This document shows positions 25,701 through 60,982 of a DNA stretch of 64,000 nucleotides, in pieces. Both the position numbers and the translations under genes were made by a program. Location: positions 105,235,812-105,299,811 of the forward strand of contig CM034546.1 in the NCBI GenBank assembly GCA_020055645.1, given 5' to 3'. This stretch comes from Tomocerus qinae. Taxonomy: Eukaryota > Arthropoda > Collembola > Entomobryomorpha > Tomoceridae. The stretch's first letter is position 1, and every line of letters begins with the position of its first letter. The notes under the pieces were generated by a model that was not told where the DNA came from, did not search any database, and worked only from the letters and a program-made list of their open reading frames with translations.

Positions 25701-28700
25701 CTGTGTTCATAAGTATATTTAGATAGAATGCAATACGCTATTCTACTCTATCACGGATAATAGTATCGTTTGTATCTTGTTTTGTCACGGAGCAATTTGC
25801 ATAACAATAGGAGATATTCTTTGTTGAGAAGTGGCATGTTGAGGCAATGCTGATTATGAGATTTTAGTGATGCTAAGATTAAAGAGGTACGTTGATACGC
25901 ATAAAGTATGACACTAATATACTTCCCTTCCTAGTAGCGTACTATTAAGTAGTAACCAGTGGTTTGAATTAAAACCATGCAGAAAATTGATGCACAATAT
26001 TAGGTACGACTATTTGTGAGTTTATGACATTATTACTATGTGCAAGATGCTCGGTCAGATTTACACCATTATAGTTTTACCTGCGTAACAAATTAAAAAT
26101 TGAACATTGTTGTCTTCCGAAAGAATTTTATGCCTGGATGAATATGTGACAAGATCTTTGGAAATGCTTTTTCATAATATTATACCTAACTAGCAAATGA
26201 TTTTTTTATATGCAGGGTGCGGATCTTGGAGGAGCTCGAGAATCACGAGAAGTGCAGACAGAGCTGGACGAATGGGACAGAGTTGCCATTGACGTTGACA
26301 CGCTGACCAGACAAAATTGTCAGCTACGAAACAGCGTTGCTACTCTTCAACAGGAATTGGCCACTTTGAAGGATAAACTAAAAGTATGCACCTTTTAACA
26401 ATGTTTTGGGTAGAGCTACAAAATGCTTATTTGTTGAACCACTATACAACTAATACAGTCCAGCTGAAGTTAATAGCTATTTAATTCATAATATAACTGT
26501 GATAAAATACAAAATGGATGGTAATATATAAATATAGCACTTGCTGATTTAGGTAGGAATAGGGCATGTTACAAAGTTAAATTGAGAGATTCTTGCTTTA
26601 TCCGGTTCCATTATGTTGCATTAATCACTTCGTATCGAAACTTCATTTCCTGTAAGCAGATCATAACACTTTGAACGTCTCTAAAGTTGCGGAAGAGATC
26701 CATGGATTTAGTGGTATATTCAAAGGCCAAAGCCCAGTTACACATCGGTCCAAGTTTGAACTCGATCGCGCCGAGGCTCTGGACAACATCTGCAAAGTCT
26801 CCATATTTCTCTCTAATTGCAGATAGCTGCTGCAACATTTCAAGCAATCTTTTTACGTCTGCTGTTAAAAGTAGGGCCTTCTCCCCGTCCCCAAATCCCA
26901 TCATTCTTGTTATCATCTTGCGGGGATCTTTACTTTGTACTTGTTCAATCTTCTTTTTTACACTTTTTAAAGTAGCATCATTTTGATTTTCGCTCAAGGC
27001 AATAGGACTTCTCAAAACATAGTCTAAAAGGTAATAGCAGTAGTCAACGTCGAATTTAGGTTCCAGCTTTAGCAATGCTGGTAGCTCATCTCCTCTGGTT
27101 CCATCCACGACATACTGAATCGGGCAAAAATTGAAGAATCCCGCAAAGTACACTGCTGTTTGATACAAAACATTCGATTCCCCAGGTGGACACAGCTTCA
27201 ATGCTTTTTCATATTGAGATTTGGCTATTGGATAATGCCTGAAATCTTCAAAGAAAATTTTTCCTTGATGGAAATAGGAATCACAGTTTTCTTCCCATAA
27301 ATCCAGAGATTTTTTAAAACGTTCAAAAATTATGTTAATATCAGCTTCTGTACTATTCCTATATTCCATCCAACGTTGACAATACAAAGCCCATTTAACG
27401 GCAGCTGAACTTCTCATCTGATTGGTGATATGCGCATCCTGCGAATTCATCACTTTTAGAAAATCCTCTTCACATTTTGTTCCATAACCCCAAAGGAATC
27501 TAAATGTCCCACGGAGCAAGTAAGCTTCGGCGTATTCCTTGCTACACTCAACGTCATCAGCAAGTTCCTCGTCACAGAAGCCGATGATTTTATCGTAATC
27601 TCGTTCTTGTAAAGCTTTTACTGCTGCCTTAAACCCTGTTGCCGTTGTATCTGATTCAGATGGAAGCCGGACAGGCCATTTCCCTTTCCACATTAAAGAA
27701 ATCGGGTCGACAACAAACCAACTTAAATATTCTTCTATTTCGATAAGTAACGGTTTGATGGGATTGTTTTCAGTTTCAATTTTCTTCAAAAATTCAGCCG
27801 CTCTCGGTTTAGCCGTTGCTGCGTTCACTTTCTTCCACAATTTTGAAATAGTATCATCGAAATCCAAAAGATTTTTCCGACAAAAAATATGACCCTTAAC
27901 TAGTGCTTTTCTGGCGTTATCATAATCCTCAATTGCTACGCACAGTTTTGCCATTCGTTTCATAGCCCTGAAGTGATCCGGGTCCAATCGAATAGATTCT
28001 TCATAATGAAATATTGCGTTTGTAGTGTCTTTCATGGCTTCGTAAGCCATACCCTTGTTACTGTGGATCATAGCCATTTCCTTGGGAGTACTGGCTTTCG
28101 TTAAAGCTTCGTCATACTTTTTTAACGCAGCTGAGTAATTTTTGTCTTTTATGAACAAATTGTTTCCTTCCGCCTTCAATTCCAAAAACTCCTTCATGTT
28201 TTTCACTTTGATATTATTGTTGAGAATATTAAGTTTTTCTCCAGTATCAGTGTTTGTATCTTCTTACCAGTTCCAGTGGCCTCCGCCAACCGCTCTAAAC
28301 TCCGAGTAGATGTAGCCAATCTAGTGTGAAGATCTCCACGTTACATTAGGTTGTCCCACCAAGCTCAAAGTAAACTATTTTCTGGACACACTGTGGGCCA
28401 ACTGCTCTGATTTATAGTAGAGATGTGTACAGAAAGATGTATTGTTTACTTTGAGTGGCGCGGCAGTGCTATGGTTTTAATAAACTTTGATATCCTATTT
28501 TCTTTACTGAAAGCGATATTGATATTGATGCCGTCATATAACTTTACTCCACTTTACTTACTCCACTTTACTCCACTATGGCGAAATATCTAATCCAATT
28601 AAGGTGATTGTGTATACGATTTGGGAAACTCAGGTGACTATCAAATTACATGTTAAAATTTTTTGCCATTTTTGTTTCAACTTCCTCAGTTTTACTCCGA

Positions 28701-31700
28701 TTTTCTAATGAAGTACATTTTTGGAAAGGTAAAAACATTGACTAGGATTTGGATTGGGAAAACTTTTGATTTTTTTGATCATTTAGGAGTAGCAATGGTT
28801 CAAAATTTTAACTGAATTTCTATCCAGAAGTCAACATAAAGTGTGAACTGTATATAAACTGAGACAATAATCGAAAATTTTCCCAATCCAAATCCTAGCC
28901 AATGTTTTTACCTTTCCGAAAATGTACTTCATTAGAAAATCGGAGTAAAACTCAGGAAGTTGAAACAAAAATAGCAAAGAGAGTTGCATGAAATGTAAAC
29001 TGCCCTATACTTGACCGGATTTGCAGGTCATGAATATCCGACAGATTGAAGCGATGGACTAACATAAGACAGAGCATTGAGCTTTTTTCTATGCCAACGC
29101 TGGTGTAGTCAATTTGCCCTGCGAATTTCCATTGTGTAACAAAATTACTTATATCACAGTACAGTAATTCGATCCCATGGTTACGGATTACTGTCTCAAG
29201 AGATGTAGCAGTGCAATACGACAATACTCGAAATAACACTACATGAGTGCAAATGTACACTAGTGTTGTCATTGGCCAAGTCAGCCTTTTTCTGCAGCCT
29301 TTTTGATTGAAGTCTAGCTGGGTGCATGCATTCAGCTAAAATCTTTGTCAGCTTATTTGTGTAATTATTCGGTACGCTGCAGTCAACAAACTATACTGTA
29401 ATGGCTCTGGCGGCAAAGGTTCAAAATTACCATGAAAAGGTCTCAGAAGAAATAACTGCCTTTCGAAATTTGCAACGAATGATTTTGGGGGAGAGTAAGT
29501 TTGTGGAAGAGACGCCTATTACAGCTTCGGCCATGGGGGATATGTATGTATGAAAAGGTGAACATGTACAGTCTAGTAGTAATGTGTTTTATCATATTAT
29601 CACGAATTATTTCTTGAATAATCGAATTGAATTATATTGATGATGTAGATAATAAAAATAAAAGATATATGCAGATAATATAAATTGCTAGCTGTCACTG
29701 TGTGCATTTGTTTATCACTAATGCACTAAATTATCTTGTCGGTTTGGAGGGGTTGGGTTTCGGCTACCATTAGGAACATATTTTTTAATTCGTATTTCGA
29801 AATATTTTTTTTGGTTATCAGGGGAACAGCCCCCTTAAAGATCATGAACTCTGAAGAGCAATTCTGGCAACACAGCGGAAACGGATTTTTCGTCAAGAAT
29901 GAGTCGAAAATGGCCTAAAATCTAATTATTTGTTAAATGAATACCATCTTTATTACTTGGAATTTTGAGGAAGGAGGGGAAGGTACTCCTCGACCTCAAT
30001 ACATGGAAGTGAGATATATCTCCATGAAATGACATAGTAGTTCCTAATATTTGATATTTGAGACTTGTTTTATAATCTTTAATCTTGTCGGAATCTCCTC
30101 GAATTTAAGGATTAGTATGTATGTTTTGTCATGTAAAATTCATGACATGGGAATGGGATGAATGAATGAATGAAAGTATAATATACAAACTATTGTAATA
30201 TATTATAGTCCATGTAATTGGGAACGAAAGGGGCAGATGAGACGGGAAAATGCGTGATGATTGGATGGTGATATCAATAAGTACAATCGATAGTGATTAG
30301 TGATATGGTAAAAAGCTATTAAGGTAGTAGCTATATTGAATTGGCTACATTGTTACGTTACCTAAATATATACAGGTAAATCGGAATTAATTTGTACAGC
30401 AATGCCTGAAAATATTTTGTGGTATGTGACAGTGAGAACATTCCTAAGCTGAGGGTTAATGTTTATTTACTTTGTTAATGATCTCAAGTGGTTGTAATTT
30501 ACGTGCTTCAAATTACAGAGTGGGCTGATTACACCAGATAGTGATAATGCATCTAGTGACATCGCTATATGACAAAGTTAAAATATTCTTTCCTGTATAA
30601 AAAGTATGATTGATTACTCATTGAATAAATCGTCATTATCACCACGCACAATGTAATCACAAAAATTGGGAGAATGTGTAATGGTTGGTTATGCTCACTC
30701 GATTTATTCATTTTTAGTCAGCCGGTGAGCCCCATAGCCATAACTAACAACCTGAAGACGAGCCTAATATTAGTTAGTCGAAATCTCTTTTACATGTAAA
30801 AAGTAGTAGTCTTATTAATTTAGTTTAACAAATCGATTTCATTTGTTGTGACTTGTAGAGGATGGATGTACCACAAAAGTCCGAGGAATCCCGGAAGCGT
30901 TCTTCTCGTCCAAAGCGTACAGAGGAAATGGTAACAACCCCAGTGGATTCGGAGGAAGAGGCTGAACAGATTCATCAGATTTTGGAAGATCTAAATAACA
31001 TCGTAAATTCTGAGATGCATATTCAACAGAAGCAAAGCAAAAAGGAAAAAGATATCGTTCCCGTTCATTTGGTAAAGTCGCCACCAAAAAAGGGTGCAGG
31101 GAACCCTTCGCCAGTTATGCCACGTCCTTGGCCGGGTTCATCAGCAAGCGATGATGACGATTCAGATATTGTGGAAATGCTGGAAAGGGATGCAAATGAC
31201 CGGTCTGCGGAAAGTAAAAATCCTAATGTGCGCCGCGTTGTAGAACAGTTGGAGAATATGGAAAAATCCGCCCCTAAATTTTACCCAAAGAATCATTACA
31301 AGTTGCAGAATTTCCCAACTTCAATGCCGAAAAGTCACAGTGTAAGTCCAACGGAGCCAAAACCAGATTACACTCTCCCAAATTTTCACAAGCAGAATCA
31401 TATGGCCAGTAAGTTTGCTAATTTCAAGAGTTCAAAGTTGTACTCTTCAAGTCCAGATAATTCGAATGCTTCAAGCAAAAACAACTTTTCCAGTGGAAGT
31501 TACGCGGAAGTTTATGACAAAGCTGGAGGGAGCGGACATTCACAACAAGGCCAAAGTACAAGATACAATTTCGCTCCGAGATTTTCTCCGAATTTAGATG
31601 TGATGCCGAAGAAAAAGGCTCCAACACCAACAGGACTCCGTCGTTCTGAGTCTCTTCACGCAAGCTTAGCATCAATTGAGATTATTTCTAGCTCTGACAG

Positions 31701-34698: not shown

Positions 34699-37600
34699 CT
34701 ACAAAGTATCTAGTGTCAGTCTCATGGATCGTAAATGGTCTAACAATTCATTCCTCCAAGCACTCGACACTGAATTTATACTGATGTAATCCGAATTAGA
34801 ATCAAATTGATTATAGCTACTTTCACCATTCTCTACGCCTTCTATGGGCAAATGTCTAATTTCAAAATCTACCCGCAATTGTTGTAGAATGGAATGAATT
34901 TTATTTGTTACGAAAGCTTTGTTTTTATCGATGCACAGTTTATCTTTAGGATTTACATTAGAATCTATTGAATGATTGCTCTTACAGGCTGGACTGAGTA
35001 GACTCAATTGGATCCTCGTTTTAGGGTCAAGCTCTGATAGAAGAAACCGAAGTAACGTTTTTGAATTGATTTCTTCTCCCATTGGAAATATTCGACTATC
35101 ACCTCGGCTAAATTAATGAATAATATATTAGAAAATGAAATGTTTCCTTAATAATTGCAAAAGGGAAATGTAACTTACTTTTTTGAGGGAAAAAAGACGA
35201 TAGACGGTATATGGTTCGGGCTCAATTCTATTGGTAGTGAATTTTTTAACGTGTCTATTTTTGCAAAAGTGATATTAATGTCTTGTTTGTAGTAGAACTC
35301 GGAAAGAAAAACAGACAAGCTGATCATATGGGCCAGAGCAACGCTGCAGAATCCACAGTAAGTCGCAGTGTAAAGCAATAGCAGTGGGCTTTCTTGTTCA
35401 AAAGGATGGGTTTTATTAACGAATCGAAGTAAATCATCGGATGTTAACTTCCTTAGCCGATTCTTTTCCTCATGCACCTGAATTTGTTTTTGAACTGGAG
35501 GCAAAACTGCTTCTCCTCTTTCACCACAAAGAACTTTGATAGGACTAGACTCTTCTTCTTCAATTATTTCTTGTTGTTTAGGCGGTAGCAATTTTTCTAC
35601 CCATCGCTGACTAGAAGAAGCGAATTTTGGACCATTTCCATCTTCTATACTGTCGGTAAAGTTTTTAATTGTGCTCGCAATATCAGAAATATTGAAGGTT
35701 GTAAACGGCAAAATAATCTCGTTCTGTAAATAGAAAAATAAATTTATAACCACATCTGAATTCTATACCTTCTTATCACATAAAGTGCAAGTTTTTCCTA
35801 CCTTAGCATCAATAATAAATGCTAGTGGATCACTATTTTCAGTAGCACCAAGTCCTCCAAGTCCTAAGCTAATGAAATGTGGAACATCCACAGGATCGAC
35901 AGTTAAAAATCGGAATTTCCGTTGAGATGTGCAGCTGGAGCCGGTAAAATTCATTGAAGCGGAAACATTTTCATAATGAGCTAAAGATTCTTTTCTAAAT
36001 ATGACTTCTTTTTGTTCCCAATGTTTTAATTGATCTCCTAAAATCTCACAGTTCGGTGACGCCTTTTTAGACATCCGGCAAATTTTTCTTATTTGCTTCC
36101 ACAAAGACATCCATTCTACAATAATACCAAACGTTTACAATTTCGTAAAATTTACGATATTTCAATTTCACATAATATGATATACATATATTTAACTAAT
36201 AGCTGTATAGACAACTATATAGGCGTAAAACAAATGCATTACCCGCATTAATTTTGTGGGTAAAGCGTCTTAACTTTGTCACATTTATGCTTTTGTTGCA
36301 GTTAAAGTAGTCAAGAGCTACCTCCTTAACTTGAGCGTAGAACGGAGAATAAGCAGAAGGAAAATACCGCCTAGTTATTAGAAGAAATAATGGGCCTCGG
36401 TTAAGCTCGTTTGCAAAATCATTGGATCCTAAAGAAATGGGTCGATTTGCAAATCCATTCCTGTAAATTTGTAGATTAGTTAGTTACTACATTAGTCTTC
36501 ATTATTTAATATTGCTTTCTATTAAATTATTATTAAGTGTTATTTTAATATTTAATCCTACCTAATACGATATGCCCATGTGATAGGAGTGTGTCTTGTC
36601 CTCTCAGTAATCCAATCCACGACTTGACCAACAGGGCCTTTAAGGCCAGCTGAAATTGGAACCAAATGATTTAGAAAGTCAAAAAAAGCACACAAAATGA
36701 TTAATGCATGTTATGACATATCAATGCAAATGCAACCTTTAGTTTTGTTGATTCCATGCCATTTCGCAGTGTGAATTTCATTGAATAATACTAGAGATAT
36801 GGAATTAGCTGAAGTTAAGAAAAACTTTTCTCCCAAGTTCGGTTTTAAAAAGATTCCAAACCCAACTTGGCCAAAAGGATCTGCTTCAAAGTTGCGTAAC
36901 GCCATTTGTAGGTACGTTTCATAAGCTTCCGGTGTCTCAGGCTCACTGAAGTTAAAAGATGCCAGCATGATTGCCTGAAACGCATTTCAATTATCTCCTA
37001 ATGTTATTACTGAACAAGAAATAACCTTTTAAAATGTAGAAATCTACATAACTCAGAAAACATAAATTTCAACATAAGAAATAAGAATCTACTATCAGAA
37101 AACATCATTGTTTACGCGAATCAAATTAGCAATAAACTATTATTCAATCATTAACTAACGTCATGCTGGGTTCGAAATCTCCACAGCTCTTCTTCGTTAT
37201 CCAGTCGAGTAATTGGCTTTAAAACGGATTCCATGAACTTTATCATTAGTTCTTCTCTAATGGGACCACTATATATAATGCCCTATACAAAATATAATTT
37301 CTTTAGAATATTAACAATTCTCAAATTAAATGGCTAGCTTTTGGTGTTGCATAACTTACAGACTGGGTTCCAATATGTGCAACAAAAATAGGATAATGGG
37401 ACAAATTCTTATAATTTTGTCGGCATTGGCCTTCCGGCCACCAGCAGTTTACTGCAAAAAATCTTATTTGGCCAGCTCTTGTCGAATGAAAATATTGAGC
37501 AACGCGGAAAAATACTGATCTTGCAGCAACAGATTCTGAATCCCAAGGAGCATAGTAAAAGACAAACGAAGGAGTCATTGGAATACTTCTTTGAACGAGA

Positions 37601-38341
37601 TCGACATACTCTCCCTTGTAGTTATCTTGCAAGTAAGGGGATGCATATGCAGGAAAAAATGGTTGAGGTGTTTGAACTGTACGAGTTTTTGGTGGTCTAA
37701 AGGAAAAAAAATAAGGATACAAATATTTAGTTTAGGTCTATTTAGTAAGGTTTATTTTAATTGTGAGGATAAAAAGGCTATAATAGTTACCCGCTTCGAA
37801 GGGCTGCAAACGCACTAGCAATAAGTAGGAATGCGACACACAGTTCTTTATGATATCGAGCCAGAAGGTAGCACATAGTGTTGGAGCAACGATCAAATTT
37901 CTTAATGGCTTCTTTCGGTTTATTTATTTCAGGTGAATTGTTTTTTACTATATCGTATGGGCGCTGAATAAGTTTCGACCTTGTTCTTTTGGTCACTTGG
38001 TCTTCACTTTTATTTTTTTCTTCTTCCTTCCCTGAGTTTTGACAATTATTTTCGTCCTCACCACTATCCTGGCTGTCACTGTCGCTAAAGTCGTCGTTTT
38101 CTGTAGCCTCCGCGTCCGCACCTTCGCTGCCTTCTTGGCATTCGCTGTTATCGGTGGAATTGTTAGTGTGATTGGATTGAGACTCCTCTGAATGGGAATA
38201 AGATTGCGAATTATCGGATGTTGATCTAGAATATGAACGAGAAGTTTTCGAGCTTTCCGAGTCATCAGCTTCGGGATCGTCTAGGGTATTGCAAGGAAGT
38301 TGGAGCGTTTCGACTATCTTGTCTTTATTTGGTTGGCTCAT
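34699..38341 (-). CDS. TXNDC11: Thioredoxin domain-containing protein 11 orthologue
   Basis: Nine minus-strand exons join in phase: 38341-37791, 37696-37360, 37282-37160, 36974-36737, 36649-36562, 36460-36243, 36115-35802, 35723-35179 and 35107-34699, giving about 940 aa (human about 960-985). Residues 1-150 are acidic, Ser-rich and disordered. A transmembrane segment (LCVAFLLIASAFAAL) lies at about 166-181. The first thioredoxin-like domain has FVFYYAPWDSES near 228-239 and a conserved NCWWPEGQC stretch. VKEVALDYFNC and a second domain with TYCGFC (CxxC at 746-749) follow, then FFPS...NSKTLLRFLL. TXNDC11 is an ER membrane oxidoreductase-like protein reported to act with DUOX maturation factors and EDEM proteins. 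Here the first active site reads DSES and has lost both cysteines; the second keeps CGFC. Introns are short (about 74-360 bp). Confidence 0.9.
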
Positions 38342-40200
38342 TTCCTTATTTGCGTATCATACGTGGAAACCATGTCCATAGAAAACGTACCATAATAATT
38401 CCTTAATGTATGTTCGTTCTATAATCCGACATTTAGTTTAGATTCAAAGAATTTCGCTCAAGAAAAGCTGCGCCAGTCCTGCAAATAAATAATTTATTTA
38501 TTCCTTTTCACTTCGATGGAATACTTACCACCTTCAGATTCATATATAGTACGTTTACTGTTGGTATTGAATGTACGGTAATGGAAACTATTACTATCTA
38601 TTTATCAACATACTTAAATTATAATCTTCCGTGCGTGACAAAGAAATCGAACTACTTGAATGTGAAGTAAACGATCAATAGAACCGTCATTCGTCATGAC
38701 AAAACCAACAAATACAACTGCGTATAAATAGCATGGGTCGTCGTAAAGTTCGCAAGTATAGATGGGAATTATTGAATTATGTTCAGGCACATTATCAAGA
38801 GACAATAGACCTGGTTATTTAACTTTGTAATATGTAATTTCTAAAATATAGCATGATGTGTAGTACTGTATAGCTGATGTTCTATCTATCGTAAATTAAA
38901 ACATACCACGTGCCACGTACACTCTTCTAACTTCAAACAGTATGCTATGCTATGCATGTCTATGTCACTCTACTACACGAAATATTAAATTAACCGTTTA
39001 TTTTCACAACCATCGCATCACTTTGTTTGGGTGAATTATAGTCTAGTATGTTAAGTTGCTAACTACTAGGTAGTCAGTTAAAATTGTGACAGATGTACAT
39101 ATAAGTCACACGTTAAAGATAAAAACCTATGCTTTTCTTATTCGCGTCCAAAACTACAATTTTGCTCCAGGTCTTGTCCTTATCCATAGAATTCTATTGC
39201 CTAATTACTTTCTATATCTTACTGCGTTTTATTTCTTTGAACCCGAAGTTAATATTGAAATTGGTTCGCTAATATATTTGCAAGGAAAATATTTAAAAAA
39301 TACTAACAAGCATAAGGAAAAGCACTTAATAACAGTTATAAATTATATAATGTATAACTCACTGACTACCTACAGACTGACTATTACTGACAGTGACAGT
39401 ATTGTATGTAAATGGCTGAAGAAAGTTGTCTATTATAACCAACTTTTCCTGGCTGATTACTCTATTATGGTAAACATTCTGGTACAGTGGTACATAAAAA
39501 GTCTGTGAAAGTAGAATAAATAGGACTCACATATAGTCAGAGACGAAAGATAATGAATATATATAGAGTCATAAAAGATCTGCCAGTGATAGACTTTACA
39601 TGCATTAATATAAATAGTTAAGGCTAATCTACTCAATCGAATAAAATATTTTGTAGCTAATTCAAAGTTGTTACGTTGTTAGTTGAGCGTATTTATACGA
39701 GACTTAACCTTAGATAACCATCTCTTCTAAGTTCACACAAATCACGCGGAACCATGTTACATTACCAACAACTATGCGACTTTTTTTTAGAATGTTTGAA
39801 ATTAATACAGATTGCAATGGCATTCATAAAATAGAGATAGTTTCATAATCACAGGACGTAAATGTGACATAGTAGGTAAAAGCACCTCTGTTTTATAGTG
39901 ATAGATAAAACTTGATAGTCCTTACTTATCAATCATTAAGCTAACAGAGCAACATGATATCGCTGACGGTAACCTAAAACCCATTTTTTGAGAGCTTCGC
40001 AAAATATTAATGTAACATAAAATCTAACATAGCCGTAGCCGCAGTACTATTGTTTTTAAATAGGACTATCTATGTATAATAAATGAGATATTGAATAGAC
40101 ATTTCTCACAACTTCAATACCTATTCATGCTGATTTGGTGATCGGCCACCAATTAACTATTTGTGATATACCTCTATATGAATGCCGTATTTCATTTATT
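38342..40200. other. Intergenic stretch, one weak ORF
   Basis: This follows the start of TXNDC11 and should contain its promoter, but I see no clear core element. A 140-codon open frame at 39086-39508 (+) begins with a plausible ATG yet has no recognisable domain, is made of AT-rich codons and has no supporting splice context. At this base composition a single frame of that length in 64 kb is close to chance expectation, so I do not call it a gene. Confidence 0.45.
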
Positions 40201-41365: not shown

Positions 41366-42771
41366 CTATTCTGCATCTTGTTAAATGTTGAGACAATGAT
41401 CACTTGACGATAAATTATTATTTTACAACTACCATTTGGGAATTATTTCATAATTTATGCAAACCAAATATAATTTCTTCTATACTTTTCTATACATACA
41501 ACATATTATATGAGTTTCCAACATTCCAATTGCGACGTCAAATGTCTAAACCGATTAAACCGATAACCGAGTAAATAATCCTACCTGAAGATCAACCTTC
41601 CTTCTATACCATGCACAGATTACAACTACGTATGTCAAAATGTTAATTTGCAAAATATTAAAACTACAGCCACTAGTATTAAACTAACACCAACTGAACA
41701 ATTGTAAAAGTATGTAAACTTACAATGCAAATGGCGCAGCGAAGTTGTTCAAGACAAAAAATTAGGTTGTCACTTCTTGAAGTTTGTTAATTCCCAGTCA
41801 GTCATTACAGGACATATTCATTAATTGTAAATGTGAAATGTCGAGTTTTTAAGATTCACTGACATTGGCATCCAGCATGGGTCATCACATCAGTCTTGAG
41901 TTGAGTGAAGCTGACAGCTGAAGGGTCCATACGTCATATGTAGAAGAGTAACCAAATGTAATCTTTAATTTAATCCATTCATCATTAAAAAAACTTTCTT
42001 ACAACATTTGACAAAAACAGTAGAAATGAGAACATCTGTTTTTATACATTCAATTGTACCTTTTGCAATACAAGACAACTGTATTGTATGCTGTTGACTG
42101 TATACAGTTATACAGTATATATTTCTCTTTGGAACCGAACTTTATTATTATTGCGACTGTTCCCAGTTCCAACACCTATGACCTAAGGACAAAAGTTTTT
42201 ATAACATCATCAACAAACTAATAATATAAAAGCGTGTAATGTTGAATGTGTTTTAATTCTTATTTATACAATTTTATAACAATAATTGTATTAAATGTCA
42301 AAAAACCAACCTGGAGAGTTTGCAATGATGGAAATGGGACATCGTTTCTTCCCCAAAGTCTGCTGCTTTTGAATCAAATATTCTTTATCAACAAAAGGTG
42401 CACACGTGTCCGCATCTGAATGAAACGGTATAACATTATGATAATATAGAAGATAATAATATGCGATGTGAAGTGGCAAATTTAAAATTAATTAAATGAC
42501 TTCAGCAAAATCTTGCAAACACCTATAATATAAGAAAATAATACTTCTAATTCTGTACCCAGGACTAAGGACAGGACTCGAGGACCTCAGAGTACATTAC
42601 ACGACTGTGCACAGGCCGGTCACAGTTAGGATTATTTATACTGGAGTAAGTTTCATTTCAGTTGGGAGTTTGAATACTTTGGTTGGTAGTTGGTAGTGGG
42701 ATGAAGCCTTGGAGTACATGCTTTTAATAAAAAATAAATAAAAGAAAAAATAAAGAAGAAAAGAAAAATAA

Positions 42772-43475
42772 GTTGGGCGAAATGCACGCTTTTTCGGTAC
42801 ATGGACGTGCATATAGTATAGGCGACCCTACGTACTATTTGTGTATGTACCAAAGTTGCGCGAAATGTACGCTACTTCGGTACATGCACAAATAGTATAA
42901 GCGATCCTACGTACTATTTGTGTATGTACCAAAGTTGCGCGAAATGTACGCTTCTTCGGTACATGCACAAATAGTATAAGCGATCCTACGTACTATTTGT
43001 GTATGTACCAAAGTTGCGTGAAATATACGCTCGCTACTTTGGTACACACATAAATAGTATGGACGACCCAGCGACGTATTTTTTCTGTTCGGAAAAAACG
43101 AGCGTGTAAATGTACGCAACCGTGGTACATACACAAATAGCACAGGCGAACGTACGTACTATTTGTGTATGTAAAGTTTTTCAAAGTAGTGTAAATTTTA
43201 CGCAACTTTGGTACATACACTAAGAGTACGTAGGTTCGTCCATACTATAATATGTGTAAGACATATGCTTTGATAGGTTCCGATGCACTGTGTCAGCGGT
43301 ACAAGAAGTACTGGCCTACTCCGTCCGCCACGTAACCTCTTAATTGTCTTTATCTGAAAGGTTCCGATACACGGCATCAGCGGTACAAGCAGTACCTGCC
43401 TACTCCGTCAGCCACGTAACCTTTTATCTTTAAGTTTCCAAAGCACGGCACCATCATCGGTACAAGATGAATCAC
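42772..43475. repeat. Left arm of 6.6-kb inverted-repeat segment
   Basis: The outer part (42772-43250) is an array of about six units of 79 bp; spacing is exactly 79 bp between copies at 42831, 42910 and 42989, then more divergent. Each unit is itself an imperfect palindrome, with ACTATTTGTGTATGTACC near one end and its near-complement near the other. The inner part (43277-43475) has two copies and a partial third of another tandem unit of about 84 bp, starting GGTTCCGAT and ending CCACGTAACC. The whole arm reappears inverted at 48612-49345. Open frames on both strands here are by-products of the repeat. Confidence 0.9.
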
Positions 43476-43759: not shown

Positions 43760-44056
43760 CTTTTTTTTGGAAACTTGTAACTCCTCCGAGAATACTGCTC
43801 GTAGAAAGACAAGTTTGGACTCTAAAATTCCAGAAAAGGTTGTGTTAACCAAGTACGTTGGAATATTCAACATTTTTACTTCCGATTTTGAGATATTAAT
43901 GTTTTTGTGGAAAAAGAGGCAATATCTCGCAACCATAGGTAAAATTTTAAAATTTTCCAACGTACTTGGTTAAAACAACCTTTTCTGGAATTTTAGAGTC
44001 CAATCTTGTCTTTCTACGAGCAGTATTCTCGGAGGAGTTACAAGTTTCCCAAAAAA
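43760..44056. repeat. Foldback element with ~100-bp arms
   Basis: The arm at 43760-43862 is reverse-complementary to 43956-44056 with only a few differences (shared GGAATTTTAGAGTCCAA-type sequence), around a loop of about 93 bp that contains smaller inverted repeats. It lies inside the 6.6-kb segment and contains no gene. Open frames across it on both strands are shadows of the palindrome. Confidence 0.8.
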
Positions 44057-45775: not shown

Positions 45776-47043
45776 ATGCCCGTTCAAGATATTCAAAATG
45801 AAGAGGATTATGAGAAGCAACTGACAAAAGCAGGATCTAAATTGGTGGTCGTAGATTTCACAGCAAAATGGTATTGTTCTGTTCTTCAGCTTTCGATTTT
45901 TGGAATTTTACAAGCTTTATGGTAACTTCCTTAACTAGTATGAGTATTTTGTATCTTACAAGGTGTGGCCCCTGCAAAATGATAGCTCCAGTTTTCGAGA
46001 GTCTGAGCACAAAGTACAAAAGTACAGCAGTCTTTCTTAAAGTTGATGTAGATTTGTGCCAAGAAATTGCTGCATCCTGCAATGTCAAGGCGATGCCTAC
46101 GTTCATATTCTATAAGAACAAGGTGGAAGTTGACCGCGTTAGGGGTGCTGATTCCAGTACATTAGAGCTTAAAGTGAAGGAGTTAGCCGATTCGGTGTGC
46201 AGCTTTTCTGGATCCGGACAACGCCTTGGCGGAGAAGGTACTGAGGGTACCGCTACCGCTAATTCAGGACTAACTAGTTGGCTACCTGGTGTACCAAGTT
46301 TGCTTACTGGATTAATTTCAGGAACTGGACCATCCTCAACTTCCGATAATACGCAAAACAACAATCATATTGAAGATGAAGCTGCAGCGGTGAAGGCAAT
46401 GGCTGTTGACAACTCGTCCCCGGTTGCTACCATACAAATAAGACTAAACGATGGGACAAAGTAAGTCCATGACTCGAATCTACTCCAAAAGAGCAAAAAT
46501 AGGAAAAAAGATTTTTTTCGCCATTTGTAATGATAAAAACTCACTTTCCTGTGTCCTCTGAACGTAATCTTCATCAAAGTAAAATAGTATAGCAGGGAAA
46601 AGGAAAAACGTGAAAGACTTGTCGATTTTATATAATAGAAAAGCCTAATTTACATGGTAGTAAAAGTGGCGTTCCATATACTTACCTGCAATAATAATAA
46701 TAATATTATGGTTTCCACTGCTGCACTGTGGCGAGGGGTACTTCCACAGAATTAGATGAGTATTACAAATTAAATAAGACTAGAAGCAGGAACCGAGTCT
46801 TAAGATTTGTTTCTTATTTGACTAAATGAGTGTACCTGATTTATATTTAGGCTCACCCTGAAGATAAATACTAACCAGTATGTTTCCAGAATTAGAGAGT
46901 ATATATGTATTGCTCGCCCATCGCTCTCATCACGTCCGTTTACTTTGATGACAACTTTTCCAAGCAAAGAGATTACAGATGAAGATGCCACTATTTTGGA
47001 AGCAAATTTAGCCAATTCTGTGGTTGTTGTAAAGCTTAAATAA
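45776..47043 (+). CDS. Thioredoxin-UBX chimera (TXNL1-like plus p47 C-terminus)
   Basis: Three exons join in phase, 45776-45870, 45963-46460 and 46851-47043, giving 261 aa. Residues 1-107 are a complete thioredoxin fold most like TXNL1 (AGSKLVVVDFTAKWCGPC, redox CGPC at 33-36, then AVFLKVDVDLCQ, MPTFIFYKNKV and RGADS). In place of the TXNL1 PITH domain comes FSGSGQRLG (113-121), the p97-binding SHP box as found after the SEP domain of p47/NSFL1C. A Gly/Ser/Thr-rich linker and a UBX domain follow (about 186-261: TIQIRLNDGTK, RIREYICIARPS, MTTFPSKE, LANSVVVVKL), very close to p47. Family knowledge: TXNL1 associates with the 26S proteasome, and SHP and UBX bind p97/VCP. Inferred role: a p97-linked thiol reductase. 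Exon 2 runs unbroken from CGPC into UBX, so the fusion is not a modelling artefact. AATAAA lies at 47128. Confidence 0.88.
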
Positions 47044-48611: not shown

Positions 48612-49345
48612 TCATCAGCTTGTACCACTGCACTGGTGCCGTGCTTTAGAAACTTAAAGATAAAAGGTTACGTGGCTGACGGAGTAGGCAGGTACTGCTT
48701 GTACCGCTGATGCCGTGTATCGGAACCTTTCAGATAAAGACAATTAAGAGGTTACGTGGCGGATGGAGTAGGCCAGTACTTCTTGTACCGCTGACACTGT
48801 ACATCGGAACCTATCAAATTTGGATATGTCTTTCACATATAGTATGGACGAACCTACGTACTCTTAGTGTATGTACCAAAGTTGCGTAAAATTTACGCTA
48901 CTTTGAAAAACTTTACATACACAAATAGTACGTACGTTCGCCTGTGCTATTTGTGTATGTACCACGGTTGCGTACATTTACACGCTCGTTTTTTCCGAAC
49001 AGAAAAAATACGTCGCTGGGTCGTCCATACTATTTGTGTGTGTACCAAAGTAGCGCGCGTATATTTCACGCAACTTTGGTACATACACAAATAGTACGTA
49101 GGTTCGCTTATACTATATGTGCATGTACCAAAGAAGCGTGCATTTCGCGCAACTTTGGTACATACACAAATAGTACGTAGGTTCGCCTATACTATTTGTG
49201 CTTGTACCGAAGTAGCGTACATTTCGCCCAACTTTGGTACATACACAAATAGTACGTAGGTTCGCCTATACTATTTGTGCTTGTATCGAAGTAGCGTACA
49301 TTTCGCCCAACTTTGGTACATACACAAATAGTACGTAGGGTCGCA
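48612..49345. repeat. Right arm of 6.6-kb inverted-repeat segment
   Basis: This is the inverted counterpart of the left arm. The 84-bp-type units come first (48612-48815, CCTACTCCGTC complements ending GGTTACGTGGC), then the 79-bp palindromic satellite (48840-49345, repeated GGTACATACACAAATAGTACG). The two arms agree over more than 600 bp in the same internal order, so they form one large inverted repeat enclosing about 5.1 kb. No target-site duplication is obvious, because both outer edges end inside repeat units. Confidence 0.9.
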
Positions 49346-49600: not shown

Positions 49601-52196
49601 ATGACAGCTAAGGACGACCTCAAACTTCCGGCAGGTCTTGAGTTGGTAAAGTCATAGCTTTTTTGTAAATTATGGTCAATAATAAACTCTGTGCTGAATG
49701 ATTGTAAATAAGTTGTGGGCTTAAAGAAATCGTACCTATACTACTAATAAATATTATGAATATAAATAAATACAGATATATCAACTGGAAAGACAAAATG
49801 TACGCAATGCCTTGGATGCTTTCGTCCTTACGTTACACTGGACAATTGTAAGGGCTGGACTACGTGTAAAATCCGAAAATACAGATAACTTTACAGAAAG
49901 ACTTCCAGCAAATTGGTCAGGGGCAGCGGTCCAGGAGACACCGACTCGTCATCTAGCTTTTGATTATTTTTTCCCCGAAAAACCAAGTACACGTTATCAA
50001 GTCAGAGTAGTTGAGCTGACACCAGAAGATCAAGTCGTTGTTACCATTAACCTCACTAATAGCGGAGAAAATGCAGCGCCTGAACCAACTACCGGCAATG
50101 AAGCAAATCAACAACAGGAGAATGCATCCTCCTCAAACAATAGCCGACAAGATAGATCAGCGTCTACGTATTTCATTGGAGATTTTATTAAGAAGTCCTT
50201 ATTTTCAGAGCAGTCCCAAGAATTAGATAGCGCAGTCAGCGTCTTCTTCAAGTGTACAGAATTAGAAAGACAAATATGGGGAGAATTGTTGGAGCCTATA
50301 AATATACGAGTGTCCGGTGTTGCACCTCTTCCTGGGCCTTATGACGATCATACTCCACGCCCACAACAATCCACGGATCAAACTGCTGCGGAGCGGGAAC
50401 GAGAACGTTTACGAAGAAGAAATCTACGTGAAGGTAGAAGTTCCCTCATTGAAGATGGACGCCGTCCGCAACCCCTTCCGATGGGACCAATCGGCGGAAT
50501 TGGACGAATGTGAGTATAATAGGGAACAATAGTCATCTCGTACGAAAATAGGCCATGTCGGATTCTGAACTTTTTGAACATGAAAAATTGTGAACACATT
50601 TATAATTAAAATCCTTTTTTATGGTTTGTAAGTGGACCACCTGTGCCTGGATTAGGTCCTCTGGGTCGGTCGGATTTAGATCCTCTTGGAGGAGTAGGAG
50701 CTGGAATGCTTGCAGATCCTCGAGGTTTTCGCAATCCTCGTGTTGGACCGGGTGGATTAAATCCGTAAGCCAATTATTTTTTAATTGCTCAATGGGCTGA
50801 ATTTAGGCAGCGGTACTTTGTTGCCACTGTCCCCGCTGTCGCCGCTGTTGCCGCTGGGAGGTTTGGGGGGTTAGCGGCGACAACATAATAGCGGAGACAG
50901 TGGCAACAGCGGCAACAGTGGCGACACGGTACAACCACTAGTGGCAACAGCGGCGACACGCAAAATCCACTAGCGGCAACAGCGGCGACACAGCTAAAAC
51001 CACTAGTTAACCTATCGTCTTTTCCATTTGCCTCCCGTCACTATTTTTGCCTCTTTTTTGACCTAACCTAATAAAAAATAAACATACTACATTATGTTTA
51101 TTTTTAATTAGGTTAGGTCAAAAAAGATGCAAAAATAGTGACGGGAGGCGAGCATTGAGCTCAGAGCAACAGTGCACTGGCTTATATTAGGTTAGCTCAT
51201 AGCAACAGAGGAAATCACATTAATGTGTCTCTGTTGCCGCTAGTGGATTTTGCGTGTCGCCGCTGTTGCCGCTAGTGGATTTTGCGTGTCGCCGCTGTTG
51301 CCACCTGTGGTTTTGGTGTGTCGCCACTGTTGCCGCTGTTGCCACTGTTTCCGCTTTTATGCTGTTGCCGCTGACCCTCTTTACCCCCTAGCGGCAACAG
51401 CGGGGACAGTGGCAACAAAGTACCGCTGCCTAAATTCAGCCGCTCAATGTTAAATGTGCTGTTGCTATTGTTATATGTACTTTATGGAAAATTGTCTTTA
51501 ACTTGCAGAGGTCAATTCCCACCTGGAGCTCGATTTGGTAAGCAAAGTAATTATTAAGGAGGATCTCCACGAACGCCTGCATAGCAAACACAACCACATT
51601 GGCCTATCTAAATGCATGTTAAAAATGTTTTACATCCGGCTTTATTCTTCCCGAAGGATAAGCCCGAATTTTATGGGACTTACATTTTTTGGAATCCAGG
51701 AATATCCAGTAACAGATTCTATAATTCTGATGTTTGATATTGTTCCTTTAAATGGTTTTAAAAAAATCAAATTCCTAAAAATGGGACAATTTAAAATTTC
51801 TTTAGGAATTTGATTTTTTTTAACTATTTAAAGGGACAATATCAATCATCAGAATTATAGAATCTGTTACTGGGTATTCCTGGATTCCAAATCTGTAAGT
51901 ACCATCATAATCAACTGCTTGGTTCGGGAGGAATTTCGTCAAATGTAACGACAGTTTTAACATGCATTTTGATACTCCCTTGTAGTTGCTATTTATTTGT
52001 GGAGTCCATACTTAAGCCAATATTCTGGATAATTAACATAATATTAAGTATCGTTAAATAACGTTATGATATATGCCTATTAGATCCATTTGGTCCTCCA
52101 AATCCTGCACGCCCTGGAGCTGGTACCGGACAATGGGCCGTACCTAATCCTGATCACGAGCAGCCTCCGCCTGGCTTTGATGACATGTTTATGTAA
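49601..52196 (+). CDS. PSMF1: Proteasome inhibitor/regulator PI31
   Basis: Five exons join in phase: 49601-49645, 49776-50509, 50633-50764, 51509-51537 and 52084-52196, giving 350 aa (human PI31 is 271). Residues 1 to about 175 are the FP domain (NALDAFVLTLHWTIV, LPANW, HLAFDYFF), which in the family mediates dimerisation and binding to Fbxo7. The C-terminal half is Pro/Gly-rich and disordered, with the typical order LDPLGG, ADPRGF, FPPGARFDPFGP and finally PNPDHEQPPPGFDDMFM. PI31 binds the 20S proteasome through this tail and acts in proteasome regulation and transport. Oddities: an Asn/Gln/Ser-rich insertion at about 111-145 accounts for part of the extra length, and the terminal HbYX-like triplet reads MFM where human has MYL. 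Introns 3 and 4 each carry a foldback or MITE insertion. Confidence 0.93.
50795..51441. mobile_element. MITE with 8-bp target duplication in PI31 intron 3
   Basis: The 647-bp element starts GGCTGAATTTAGGCAGCGG and ends with its exact complement; the terminal inverted repeat is perfect for about 45 bp and continues imperfectly. It is flanked by a perfect 8-bp direct repeat GCTCAATG (50787-50794 and 51442-51449). The interior has many CGGCAACAG/CTGTTGCCG units and a large central palindrome (51030-51082 against 51095-51150). No transposase frame is present. The 8-bp duplication is typical of hAT- and P-type transposases, so it is probably a non-autonomous member mobilised by such an enzyme. It is much more GC-rich than its surroundings. 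Confidence 0.88.
51579..51995. mobile_element. Foldback element in PI31 intron 4
   Basis: The arm at 51579-51781 is reverse-complementary to 51803-51995. The inner 95 bp (for example GATTCTATAATTCTGATG) are nearly perfect and the outer 100 bp more diverged (ATGCATGTTAAAA shared). The loop is only about 20 bp. Open frames across it are by-products. A related end occurs at 49446-49483. Confidence 0.75.
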
Positions 52197-55530: not shown

Positions 55531-58500
55531 TTAGGAATCCATCTTCTCTTTCAAACGCAATTTTTCTTTCTATAAATTATAATAACAGGAATTAATTATA
55601 TCTCAAATAACCAACATTTTTGAAAAGGAATATATTTCGTAGATTTACTTACCAGACCACCTCCTCGGGGTTTCTTAATAATTAAATTCTTTAGCCTACT
55701 ACTCTGTTTCTGTTTCACAATTTTCTCTGCTTCTTTTACTTTCTCCTTAAGAAGCCTTTGCTGTTCGTTTCTCCAAATTTCTTTGAAATCATGACAAAAA
55801 GGGCTCCAAGGAGCGAAAAAATCAAGTGCAGGGGCATCTCCGCCGGCTTTTTTCTTTGGTATGTAGTCGAAGAATTTCATTGTACATGAAAATCTGTAAC
55901 ATTCATAAAAGAATTAGCTACGGCTACTACTTCCATAATTCATGGGGCAATTATTGTTGTACAGATTATTTATCATATATCTAAGCTTACGTGTTTTTCC
56001 CTTCGTGAAAGTTTTCTTCCACATCTCGGACTTTTTCTTTTGCTATGATAAAATTGAAGACCATTATTAATTTTTTAGGAGTCTAGAGTTTAGATACAGT
56101 AGCTGATTTACATATACTTGTATTGTTTTATTTATTCTGTCCAACCTTGCTCGATAAATGAGAGCATTTTGCTTTTAAACGGTTCCACATGCTCCTCTTC
56201 AGATGTGTTTATCACTTTAGTGCTCCTCTTTTCGCACCCTGAACAGAAGTTCATTTCCCACAATAAGTTGTTGGTAATTGTAAGTGAGATTTTATTCACA
56301 TGTTCATATAATGTTTAAACAAATTACCAGAGAGATCTCCTTTGAGTTTTCTCAAATCAGACTCGATATCATCGAAATTTATTGTTGATGCTCTCTCAAT
56401 ATCACTGGGTTCTGGAACTGGAAGCTTTGCCTCTGGTGTACCTCGGTCCTCGTCGTACATCTAAAATCATGTTAAATTGAAATATCGAAATCGAGTAATT
56501 ATGAGTTCTAAATATAGTTACTGTTATTGGATTGGAAAGTAACCTTGATGTAAGATGATACGATGAAATGCAAAAATGTAAACGTGTTGTCCTTGCTTTT
56601 CACATCTCTCAATTTAGGTAAGATTTCCAAACTAAACCCATCAGCCTGACCTCTTTGCATATTTCCTCCATTCATGTAATTTCCGTAAGTAAGAATAAGA
56701 GCTAGAACTTTTTGTAGCTCTCTAGAAGACATCAGTTGCTCACAAATTAACCTTAGATTGCTTAGCTTATTTTCAATAGAAGCCAGAGATTCGAAAAAAC
56801 TGCATTGAAAAGTCAGACAAATAATCCTGTCTTCGTAGTTGGAAATTCCATTTAAGTCGTAAAGAAACCTAAAGAAATATTAAAAACGTCATAAGTGTTT
56901 GAATTGATTACAGATGATTTCCTACAAGTAATAACAGTAAATAACTAACTGGTCAGGCTTATCCAGAGGAGCTTCAGGGCAGTTTTGTACATGATCCTTC
57001 AGCAGCGATAGCTCATCAGGAGTTGCTCTCTAAAATATAATGCATACCTTCAATATTGTTTTTAACAACTCTGATCATGCATATTTTAAACGTGGGAATT
57101 AAATATAAAGTCTTACATTTTCTAATATTTTTTCCAGTGTCTCCAGATTGATAACTGACAGATCGAATTCGAATATAGCTAGAATATAATTAAAAATTTC
57201 ATTTAGAAGAAGCAAACAAATGTTTAAAAGATGTACTTTCAGCGAATTTGAAAGTTACCATTTTTAACATTTTCAATATCCAAATTGAGACTTTTGACCA
57301 GTATTCCAACATTTTGGGATCGTTTACTATCGAGAATTTTTATCGACTGCTGTTTCACAGGTTTATCTTCTACCTTCTTAACGACCTTTTTCTCAACGAC
57401 TTGTCTTGAAAAGAGGGTAGTGAAATCATCCCAATTTTCCACGGGGAGTTCCTCAAGTTTCTCCCACAGCTTTGCCTCCGGCTCGCTGCTTTCTTTAGCA
57501 CTGCCATTCTCCGCAATTTCTGGGATCACAATTGGCATCGGTATCTTTGGTTTGATTTGTATTCTTGTCCAATATAGAGGTTTCATCGGAACCTTTGGAT
57601 TAATTGGCTTCTTTCGCGATTCTACATTACCCATAGCATAACAAAAGGATATTACATATTTTGCATATTATTATGATAATCACAAATATTTTCTACAATT
57701 TCCACCACCAAAAACCCACGAAATCTGTAATCACCTGCTTTAACTTGAGTAGCCCATCCTCCCGGCGGAGGGGGAGGAAGGGAAGGAATACCTGGTCCCG
57801 ATAAAGGGGGAGGTGGAGGAATCGGACCGGCCAACCCAGGAGGCGGAGGTGGAGGCGGTGGTCCACCCATTCCTGGGGGAGGAGGAGGAGGAGGCGGACC
57901 ACCCATACCAGGCATAGGAGGTGGAGGAGGAGCACCAGGCATAGGAGGAGGCGGTGGCTCACTCATACCTGGCATAGGAGGTGGAGGTGGAGCGCCAGGC
58001 ATAGGAGGAGGAGGCGGTCCACTCATACCCGGCATAGGTGGTGGAGGCGGAGCGCCAGGCATCGGAGGAGGGGGAGGAGCATTATTGTCATTACCTGGAA
58101 ATGGAGGGGGTGGAGGAGCACCAAAGTTAGGCATAGGAGGAGGAGGCGGTGGCGGAGCTGCTATATTAGAAGAGGGCATAGGAGGTGGAAGAGGAGCTAA
58201 AGATGTGGATGAAGGAATCGACGAAGTTGATTCAACTGGAGAAGCGAAATCCCTGTTGATTTTGGCATTTAGACTCTGTAGGACAAAACATTACTCAATT
58301 TAGTTACATTCAACTATCAAAAGACACAAAGGAAATGAAATTCAAAATTCTACCTGAATTTCATTTAGAGTTTTCAACTTTTCATTTTCTTGTTCCAATT
58401 CCTGAATCCTTTTTGCATATTTTTCCAAAAGTTCGGCCGTTTCTCCACGTACAGAAAACACCTGAACCTCGTGCTCATTTTCTTTCTTGTTCAAGATTTC

Positions 58501-60982
58501 TTTGTGTTCTCGTTTAAGTCCCATTACCACTTGTTGAAATTCTGTTGTTTATTAAGAAACTAATTACTACTTGATCACACAATGAGTACAATAGATTGAA
58601 ATGAAGAACAAAGTACAGTTTTATAAGAAGACAAGTTTAGTTATGTAATAGGTACTAGGTTATTATGTAAATTGAGGCAAGTTGAGAATTATGGAAAACA
58701 AAATCATAATTGAAATGTTAACAGTATAAAAATGTCGTTATAAATTAGAAAATAATTATGTAGATCATAGAAGATATTAATAACATCGAAACCAACAGTA
58801 AAGTAAACATGAAGTATATTTAATAGAATTAGTAGAAAATGTTATAATGTAAATGGACAGTAAAATAAGTGGTATGTAAATGTTATTGGTTTTAGTAAAC
58901 AGATAAAGTGAATACAAAGCGTTAGTAATTAACAGGGACGGACCTGCACCTGGGACCTCATTTGCCTGGTCAACCCTTGTGAGGTCAATCTCACTTTCGA
59001 AGTGACTCACAGTTTTAGGCACTGTTCCCGGCTCGGGTAAGTGTTCAGGAGACAATGTTCGACTACTACATTCTGAATTTTGAGCACCACCAACACCATT
59101 TCCTTCTCCTTTTGCACATAGCAATTAAAATTTCCACAATATAACTTATTTGTACAAAAACATTAATCTCCCCACCCATATAAGCATTTTTATGAACTCT
59201 TTCTTAATAACTATCATTAGTTGAATTTAAAAAAATGGATATTCTCGGAACAAAACAGTCCAAGCAAAAATATTTCCCCCTTGTGTTATAATATTATGCT
59301 ATCTGAATACTTATTCGTAGACAAAAGCGTTAAAAGTTTTAGTTCCCAGCATCGAAAGCGATAATTCATAATTCAAACTTAAAACACAAACTAAAAACAC
59401 AATAATAAATAACAATTAGCAATATAAGGCATCTTTCTATTTTGTTATGTAAAGTCGAAGCTAAATGAGAGTGGGAGAATGATTTACTTACCAGCTTCTG
59501 TGTATTTGGCTCCATTACGAACAGGCGTAGCACTATCTTGTGTAGGAGGCCAAGAAACGGGTGGTAACTTACCAGGTACTTGGCAAGAAACAGCAGGCGA
59601 CTCAGAATGAGACCAGTAGTACATTAAATCTGGCTGAAAATGGTAATCATCCTTAATGAGTAAACAACAGATTGTAAAAAGGTTTATGAAAATTACAGGT
59701 ATAAGAAATCAGTACCCGAAAGATAGAGTCTAAAGGAATAGTTTCACTTTCTTCAATTTGTTTCAAGACACCGGCAGCTAAAAGTAAAGTACAAAACTGC
59801 GTAGCTAAAATCTTGAGGTCTTGAGCTGCAAGAATATCTTTCAAATAATGACCCTCTTGAAGAGATGAGACGAACCAATTGATGAGCATTTGACCTTAAC
59901 ACAATAAAGTAGCAATTAACTAAAGTTAATAAAAAGATAGATATTTCAAGCATATTTTTTAAAATAATATTTATAGTACCTTCAAATTTTTCATAGATAC
60001 GGAAATCCAATTTTTCTGGAACGAATTTTGGTTTAGATACGGATTTGGAGATATTGCTCTGACTCTGCTGCTCAGCCAGGGTGAGACTGGCAACCTTCCG
60101 CAAAACATTTGAATCTGGAAGAGGAACATCGGAAACTGAATTGTATCTTCTCGGTGGAGCAAATCCACCCCCGCCTGTCGACGAATCATTCTGTTCAAGT
60201 CCTAGTACATCATCATTATCATTAATTTCATCCAAATCACAATTAGAACAAGTGGAAGAATCTGGGTGAGCGTATTTCTTATGATTGCGGAGCCAATGGA
60301 TAATTGCAAGAGAATCTTGGCATTCGGTCAGCATTGTGATCCAATCATCACAACATTTACAATGTCGAAAAATATCTGTACAACGACTTTCCTCACAAAT
60401 ATCGCACGGACAATCCACACAAACACACTCGTTAAGTCTCTCATCACTACCATCAACTCCCTCCTCCTCTATTTGCATTTGAACATCAGCACTACCAATT
60501 AGTCTGTCCTTATCTTCGTCATGCTTATCAACTAATAGCTCATTTTCAGAGCTAATGCAACGGTTCAAGTCATCAGAAGAATCACCACCTGCCCTAAAAT
60601 GATTCTTATCAAATCTACCGTAGTCCTCATCCTCAGTCTCGCTCGAGTTTCCTTCCAAAGACTCCTGATTTTCGTCAGCAGAGATTTCTTCAGTAGAGAA
60701 ATCATGAGTTTCATCAATATCTAATATTTCTAGCCCTAAAAATTCTTCCTCATTAATATATTCCCCTATTGCTTCAATTTCACCTTCATGAAAATTAAAA
60801 TTACGATTTCTTCGATACAAATGAAAGAGATTACGAATCCTTCTCCATTCGTTTGCTATTCTACCGAAGACCATCGGAGTCAAAACAAGGAACATGATTG
60901 GAAGAACGATTTGAAATGTTTTAATTCCATTATCATGATGGTACAAGATGTTTTCACTGAAATCCATTCTCCACACATTCAT
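55531..60982 (-). CDS. capu: Cappuccino/FMN2-type formin
   Basis: Fifteen exons join in phase: 60982-59980, 59894-59716, 59633-59492, 59108-58950, 58541-58354, 58275-57735, 57621-57259, 57178-57117, 57029-56950, 56868-56544, 56460-56328, 56238-56146, 56042-55991, 55893-55653 and 55569-55531, giving about 1199 aa. Residues 325-430 ([13 protein letters not shown]...[16 protein letters not shown]) align with the region before FH1 in FMN2. A coiled coil lies at 495-557. FH1 (about 585-730) has many profilin-binding PPPPP runs. FH2 starts at PMKPLYWTR and includes [10 protein letters not shown]. The tail has [18 protein letters not shown] and a basic end (RLKEKMDS) like the Spire-binding FSI. Family role: actin nucleation and elongation with Spire. 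Oddities: a hydrophobic stretch at 24-40 and a Cys/His-rich block at 186-248. An in-frame TAG lies about 36-40 bp upstream of the ATG. The donor at 58950 is one of two phase-compatible choices. Confidence 0.85.

Follow-up and report, generated by a model that had tools for sequence, protein, structure and literature searches.

The locus at 45776-47043 (+) in the 64-kb stretch of Tomocerus qinae DNA analysed here (64,000 nucleotides, hereafter the window; 34.7% G+C, zero N) raises the question of whether a catalytic thioredoxin has been joined to the p97-docking end of p47 and, if so, what such a protein would do. As we read it, the gene has three exons on the + strand (45776-45870, 45963-46460 and 46851-47043), which together encode 261 residues and contain the terminal stop codon as their sole stop. 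Both introns have GT/AG borders, with GTATTG as the donor of intron 1 and GTAAGT as that of intron 2, and of the four donor/acceptor combinations that were translated just the 45776-45870/45963-46460/46851-47043 reading is without an inner stop. Exon 1 opens with the start codon, encodes residues 1-31 and breaks off two bases into the W32 codon, and it contributes the N-terminal part of the thioredoxin fold; it is matched by human TXN and by a provisional sequence of fly Txl (tblastn). Exon 2 (acceptor ACAAG, donor GTAAGT) is one open frame that holds the remaining thioredoxin, an SHP motif, a linker and the start of a UBX domain. Exon 3 (acceptor TTTAG) holds the remainder of the UBX, including its touch-turn loop FPS (residues 234-236), and the stop codon, and it matches human p47 at 49% over 63 residues (tblastn). 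A Pfam scan of the 261-aa protein listed 12 families which, beyond Thioredoxin and UBX, are thioredoxin kin or weak matches; SEP, UBA and PITH are not among them. Likewise, full-length human p47 matched exon 3 and nothing else in the window, with no SEP, and human TXNL1 and the provisional fly Txl matched the thioredoxin exons alone, with no PITH (all tblastn). No further copy of TXNL1, p47, PITH or SEP was found in the 64-kb window at E 0.1 or better when four provisional query sequences were used in tblastn. The order put forward in the original prediction, CGPC thioredoxin followed by SHP and a p47-type UBX, is borne out by this spliced reading, by Pfam, and by the PDB matches and the SHP consensus considered below.

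The original prediction also placed the join in the DNA, and on this point the evidence comes from exon 2. The CGPC, the SHP motif, the linker and the start of the UBX all lie within this single exon of 498 nt (45963-46460). Given the base composition of the window, a run of 166 codons without a stop would be expected by chance with a probability of approximately 4e-6. The linker itself has the appearance of coding sequence. Its in-frame codon score of 0.246 compares with a background mean of -0.165 (sd 0.095), and 0 of 4570 overlapping windows score as high; the two other forward frames of the linker score -0.229 and -0.474, and one reverse frame 0.079. The training set for this score was small, consisting of five ORFs from elsewhere in the window. 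Because one exon carries the protein from the CGPC to the start of the UBX through a coding-like linker, the join belongs to the assembled DNA, as had been claimed, and we regard it as confirmed at the level of sequence that the fusion is present there and is predicted to be read as one protein. This thioredoxin-SHP-UBX fusion is known from one genome. Among viral contigs, 14 stretches matched a peptide pattern and none of them (0/14) was a relative. The bacterial and archaeal genomes yielded a single relative among 108 stretches, on a bacterial contig, and its match is confined to residues 22-93 (43%), the thioredoxin part alone.

The thioredoxin half is identified with confidence by Pfam (PF00085, residues 7-101, E 2.5e-28, 98.5 bits, well above the curated cut-off), which together with the spliced reading vindicates the claim of an intact CGPC thioredoxin. 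The active site is complete (W32-C33-G34-P35-C36-K37), the CGPC itself (residues 33-36; 45964-45975, +) being read from the sequence inside the Pfam match, and residues 76-79 read MPTF, which we take to hold the usual thioredoxin cis-proline. Calling this domain TXNL1-like, as the original prediction did, is justified in part. In a maximum-likelihood tree of seven rows it groups with human TXNL1 and fly Txl (85/86), and its top identity in the tree set is 58%, to fly Txl, the sequence of which is provisional; the same provisional sequence gives the best BLASTP score for the thioredoxin half (136 bits). On the other side, the PDB scores slightly favour TXN. In BLASTP, TXN scores 113 bits and TXNL1 110, and among the best 60 of 284 PDB matches (E up to 0.001) ordinary thioredoxins lead (8ys1, 108.2 bits), with TXNL1 at 99.8 and 99.4 bits. 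With an unstarred branch and a provisional fly sequence, the tree favours a TXNL1 origin without being decisive; derivation of the domain from TXNL1 rather than from TXN is moderately supported by these comparisons.

Close behind the thioredoxin lies a putative SHP motif, VCSFSGSGQRLG (residues 110-121; 46195-46230, +). Residues 110-120 of this segment, VCSFSGSGQRL, fit the consensus h(x)1-2F/W(x)0-1GxGx2L as it is given in passages of PMC5389986. Among 20000 shuffled versions of the whole protein 65 contained the pattern, and among 20000 of residues 105-182 it was present in 75; a chance match is unlikely because the pattern is so rare in shuffled sequence. Judged from its position, the motif sits where a p47-type protein should have one. 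The p97-binding box that had been claimed here is thus borne out as a motif by consensus and shuffles, with p97 binding itself a prediction. The gap between thioredoxin and SHP is short, with 3 residues lying between the end of the phmmer match (106) and residue 110, or 8 if the Pfam end (101) is taken. Between SHP and UBX there follows a linker of 61 residues (122-182; 46231-46413, +), and the distance from the SHP leucine to IQIRL is 69 residues in the fusion, 31 longer than the 38 of human p47. The linker includes a hydrophobic stretch, LTSWLPGVPSLLTGLIS (46261-46323, +), that is absent from human p47. Its mean hydropathy of approximately 0.95 over 19 residues is no higher than that of buried parts of the thioredoxin, and it may form a loop in contact with a membrane or with a partner.

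The UBX half was predicted to be close to that of p47, and this proved correct. Pfam places UBX (PF00789) at residues 183-259 (E 2.1e-15, 57.1 bits against a curated cut-off of 21), with the part from residue 183 in exon 2 at 46414-46460 (+). When residues 115-261 were compared with the PDB (13 sequences at E up to 1), p47 was the top match (78.8 bits), followed by UBXN2B (65.3); lower down came a plant CDC48/PUX5 construct (54.9) and 6opc, 'UBX domain-containing protein 1' (29.9), and other UBX proteins scored at most 22.8 bits (UBXD4 22.8, FAF1 12.8). BLASTP aligns residues 278-369 of human p47 with 169-260 of the fusion (92 residues, 48% identity, 93.6 bits), a match that starts 14 residues ahead of the Pfam UBX start. 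It does not extend across the linker to the SHP motif, and the sole local SHP-to-SHP match found by BLASTP involves the other SHP of p47 and is not significant (E 0.18); a global alignment with human p47 sets the SHP motifs in register. As for the R...FPR touch-turn motif, R192 is present and the FPR position is occupied by FPS; p47, which is a p97 binder, reads FPN at this loop. The reading frame, the domain order, the intact active site and the docking motif are all there to be read in the sequence.

We propose that the gene encodes a p97/VCP adaptor with its own catalytic thioredoxin, which would reduce clients or partners at p97, and we put the probability of this reading at roughly 0.5. 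The SHP motif and the UBX would dock the fusion on the N domains of p97, as those of p47 and p37 do. Because the gap between thioredoxin and SHP is only 3-8 residues, the thioredoxin of a docked protein would be fixed at the N-domain ring, where it would be held near the substrate entrance, and the 61-residue linker would span to the UBX while the thioredoxin stays pinned. So tethered, it could reduce disulfides or oxidised cysteines of clients as they are threaded, and likewise cysteine-dependent partners of p97. The catalytic thioredoxin would thereby take the place of the substrate-binding parts of p47. On this reading, the simplest one, the role proposed for TXNL1 at the proteasome would have been moved to p97, the PITH dock having been swapped for a p97 dock. 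The intact W32-CGPC-K37 and the MPTF within a strong thioredoxin domain argue for a tethered reductase, and the consensus SHP and p47-type UBX argue for p97 docking, this being the pair described for bipartite p97 docking in passages of PMC5389986. In p37, SHP and UBX are reported to bridge adjacent p97 N domains (PMC9941556). TXNL1 at the proteasome offers, by analogy, an earlier case of a reductase placed next to an unfoldase: it is reported that it reduces disulfides with TrxR1 (PMC10570131) and docks on the proteasome by its PITH domain, and in the modelled complex of full-length TXNL1 with the proteasome the thioredoxin is near the motor entrance (PMC12700817). Against the proposal we count the UBX loop, which reads FPS where FPR is canonical (p47, with FPN, still binds), and the BLASTP match to p47, which was not carried through the linker to the SHP motif. 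Since the protein has neither SEP nor UBA, it would also have no known client-binding part besides the thioredoxin. We infer that the gene is expressed, and that its product binds p97, is redox active and has a target there. That this target is a p97 substrate is likewise what we infer, and a cysteine of the p97 N domain or p97-bound factors are equally possible.

The first of these other targets leads to an alternative in which the main target of the docked thioredoxin is p97: by resetting a redox-sensitive cysteine that the N domain has close to the UBX interface, it would tune adaptor choice. Passages of PMC12137173 describe such a residue in yeast Cdc48, Cys115, which is situated close to the interface with the UBX of Shp1, has been connected with oxidative stress and has been proposed as a redox switch; with serine in its place, the measured binding of Shp1 was lost. 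In yeast p47 is represented by Shp1, and the fusion has the same kind of docking parts, so that its thioredoxin, once docked, would be expected near a Cys115-type site. The idea nonetheless presupposes a matching cysteine in T. qinae p97 within reach of the tethered thioredoxin, and the passages of PMC12137173 that deal with Cys115 report no link between it and a thioredoxin. We consider this alternative, which rests on analogy with yeast, to be fairly unlikely.

The surroundings of the gene bear on another alternative, namely that the fusion is a chance chimera, either unexpressed or functionless, or an artefact of assembly. The gene is flanked by a pair of recent-looking inverted repeats (left arm 42770-43454, right arm 48632-49313), with arms of approximately 0.7 kb that stand 5.2 kb apart and are complementary over 440 nt at 97% and 185 nt at 98%. 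Tandem units of 79 nt are found at the outer ends of the pair, including that of the left arm, and these outer ends are unequal. We found no target-site duplication, there being no shared 5-mer or longer beside either repeat copy alone, and the one shared 7-mer falls inside the repeats. Since the outer ends differ and a target-site duplication was not found, the repeats could be either the two termini of a single mobile element that carries the gene or a pair of separate insertions. In the interval that separates the gene from the left repeat, two ORFs gave no transposase or other domain above the curated cut-off. In the same window a formin gene is seemingly cut in two by an inversion of approximately 32 kb, with parts at 23386-26398 (+) and 55596-58548 (-). 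The exons on the + strand resemble an FH3 and coiled-coil start (Drf_FH3 2.4e-4 on the joined pieces, below the cut-off), and the first two ORFs there found no formin in the PDB; the part on the - strand has a coiled coil, FH1 and FH2 (4.8e-34; best PDB match DAAM1). A long matching repeat at the two formin ends was not found, and the split may be a real inversion, a scaffold mis-join or two genes. Given the recent-looking repeats and the apparently split formin, the region has been rearranged or mis-joined somewhere, and the viral and bacterial/archaeal collections, neither of which is eukaryotic, yielded no relative with the full order. However, the gene presents a three-exon open frame with good splice sites, a coding-like linker and both domains intact, exon 2, apart from a match of 14 nt at chance level (E 0.32), is not repeated in the rest of the window, and the suspected formin break points are >11 kb away. 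On balance we judge a chimera of this kind unlikely. It is improbable that the protein is a p97 adaptor using its thioredoxin as a binding or chaperone module with redox chemistry secondary, as might be suggested by the report that TXNL1 chaperone activity needs no cysteines (PMC10570131) and by the UAS domains, thioredoxin-like without CxxC, of known UBX adaptors (passages of PMC8181520 and PMC9941556), because the full CGPC has been kept and a pure binding module would not need it.

Several other features of the window were recorded. Directly downstream of the fusion gene is a PI31 (PSMF1)-like gene at 49602-50513 (+), the start at 49602 being read from the sequence; the similarity to this proteasome regulator comes from ORF 49770-50513, whose Pfam match (PI31_Prot_N, E 0.0012) is below the cut-off. 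Exons at 34699-38356 (-) look like a multi-thioredoxin protein, presumably of the TXNDC11 type, with a Pfam Thioredoxin match in 35175-35762 (3.3e-4, below the cut-off) and no convincing match for 37321-37731 or 35763-36134. An intronless open frame of 550 aa at 26611-28263 (-) has tetratricopeptide repeats (TPR_2 2.1e-11), and an ORF at 53683-54012 matches LPMO_10 (9.6e-6), a family common in arthropods. More palindromic or foldback repeats occur at 43762-44056, 50795-51441, 28662-28978 and 51688-51891; their arms of 52-164 nt are 87-98% complementary and they are like small inverted-repeat elements.

If the gene is expressed and the protein docks as predicted, p97 would carry its own tethered reductase. 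To our knowledge, the field has not settled how clients that are oxidised or held by disulfides become reduced ahead of p97 threading. If nature has fused a reductase with a p97 dock, this would hint, on evolutionary grounds, at a coupling between reduction and unfolding by p97, and it would provide a small two-module protein with which to test that coupling. It would also parallel the recent finding of TXNL1 beside the proteasome motor. We entertain, tentatively, the broader idea that an animal lineage evolved a dedicated and conserved p97-docked thioredoxin, in which the proteasome dock of TXNL1 was exchanged for the p97 dock of p47 and reduction was moved upstream to the unfoldase that feeds the proteasome, possibly with p97 adaptor choice being sensitive to thioredoxin. 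Most of the remaining doubt attaches to the expression, conservation and function of the fusion.

Comparison with known proteins places the fusion between three groups. The SEP-domain p97 adaptors p47, p37 and UBXN2A share with it an SHP motif followed by a C-terminal p47-type UBX, but in the fusion SEP and UBA are missing and a catalytic thioredoxin stands in their place. The proteasome-associated TXNL1/Txl proteins have a similar N-terminal CGPC thioredoxin, with which that of the fusion groups, with moderate support, in the tree. In contrast to them, the fusion has predicted p97-docking parts instead of a PITH domain, and having no PITH it is without a known proteasome dock. Finally, FAF1, FAF2 and UBXN7 (UBA-UAS-UBX) resemble it in having a thioredoxin-fold domain ahead of the UBX in a p97 adaptor. 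Here the differences are that the fold in the fusion is a PF00085 Thioredoxin with CGPC rather than UAS, that SHP is present and that there is no UBA; the UBX of FAF1 is also far from that of the fusion, as its PDB score indicates. The function of the UBXN7 UAS domain has reportedly been the subject of a published study (PMC10080908). Passages of PMC8181520 and PMC9941556 describe the UAS domains of FAF1, FAF2, UBXN7 and plant PUX relatives as being without CxxC. The claim that no animal protein with this order has been described agrees with the open-licence full-text literature, the consulted portions of which describe no thioredoxin-UBX protein or fusion, with the reservation that unnamed relatives may exist in databases. 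Thioredoxin-like/UBX proteins with a UAS domain are therefore known, and what appears to be new, as judged from the predicted protein, is the combination of a true CGPC thioredoxin with SHP and a p47-type UBX.
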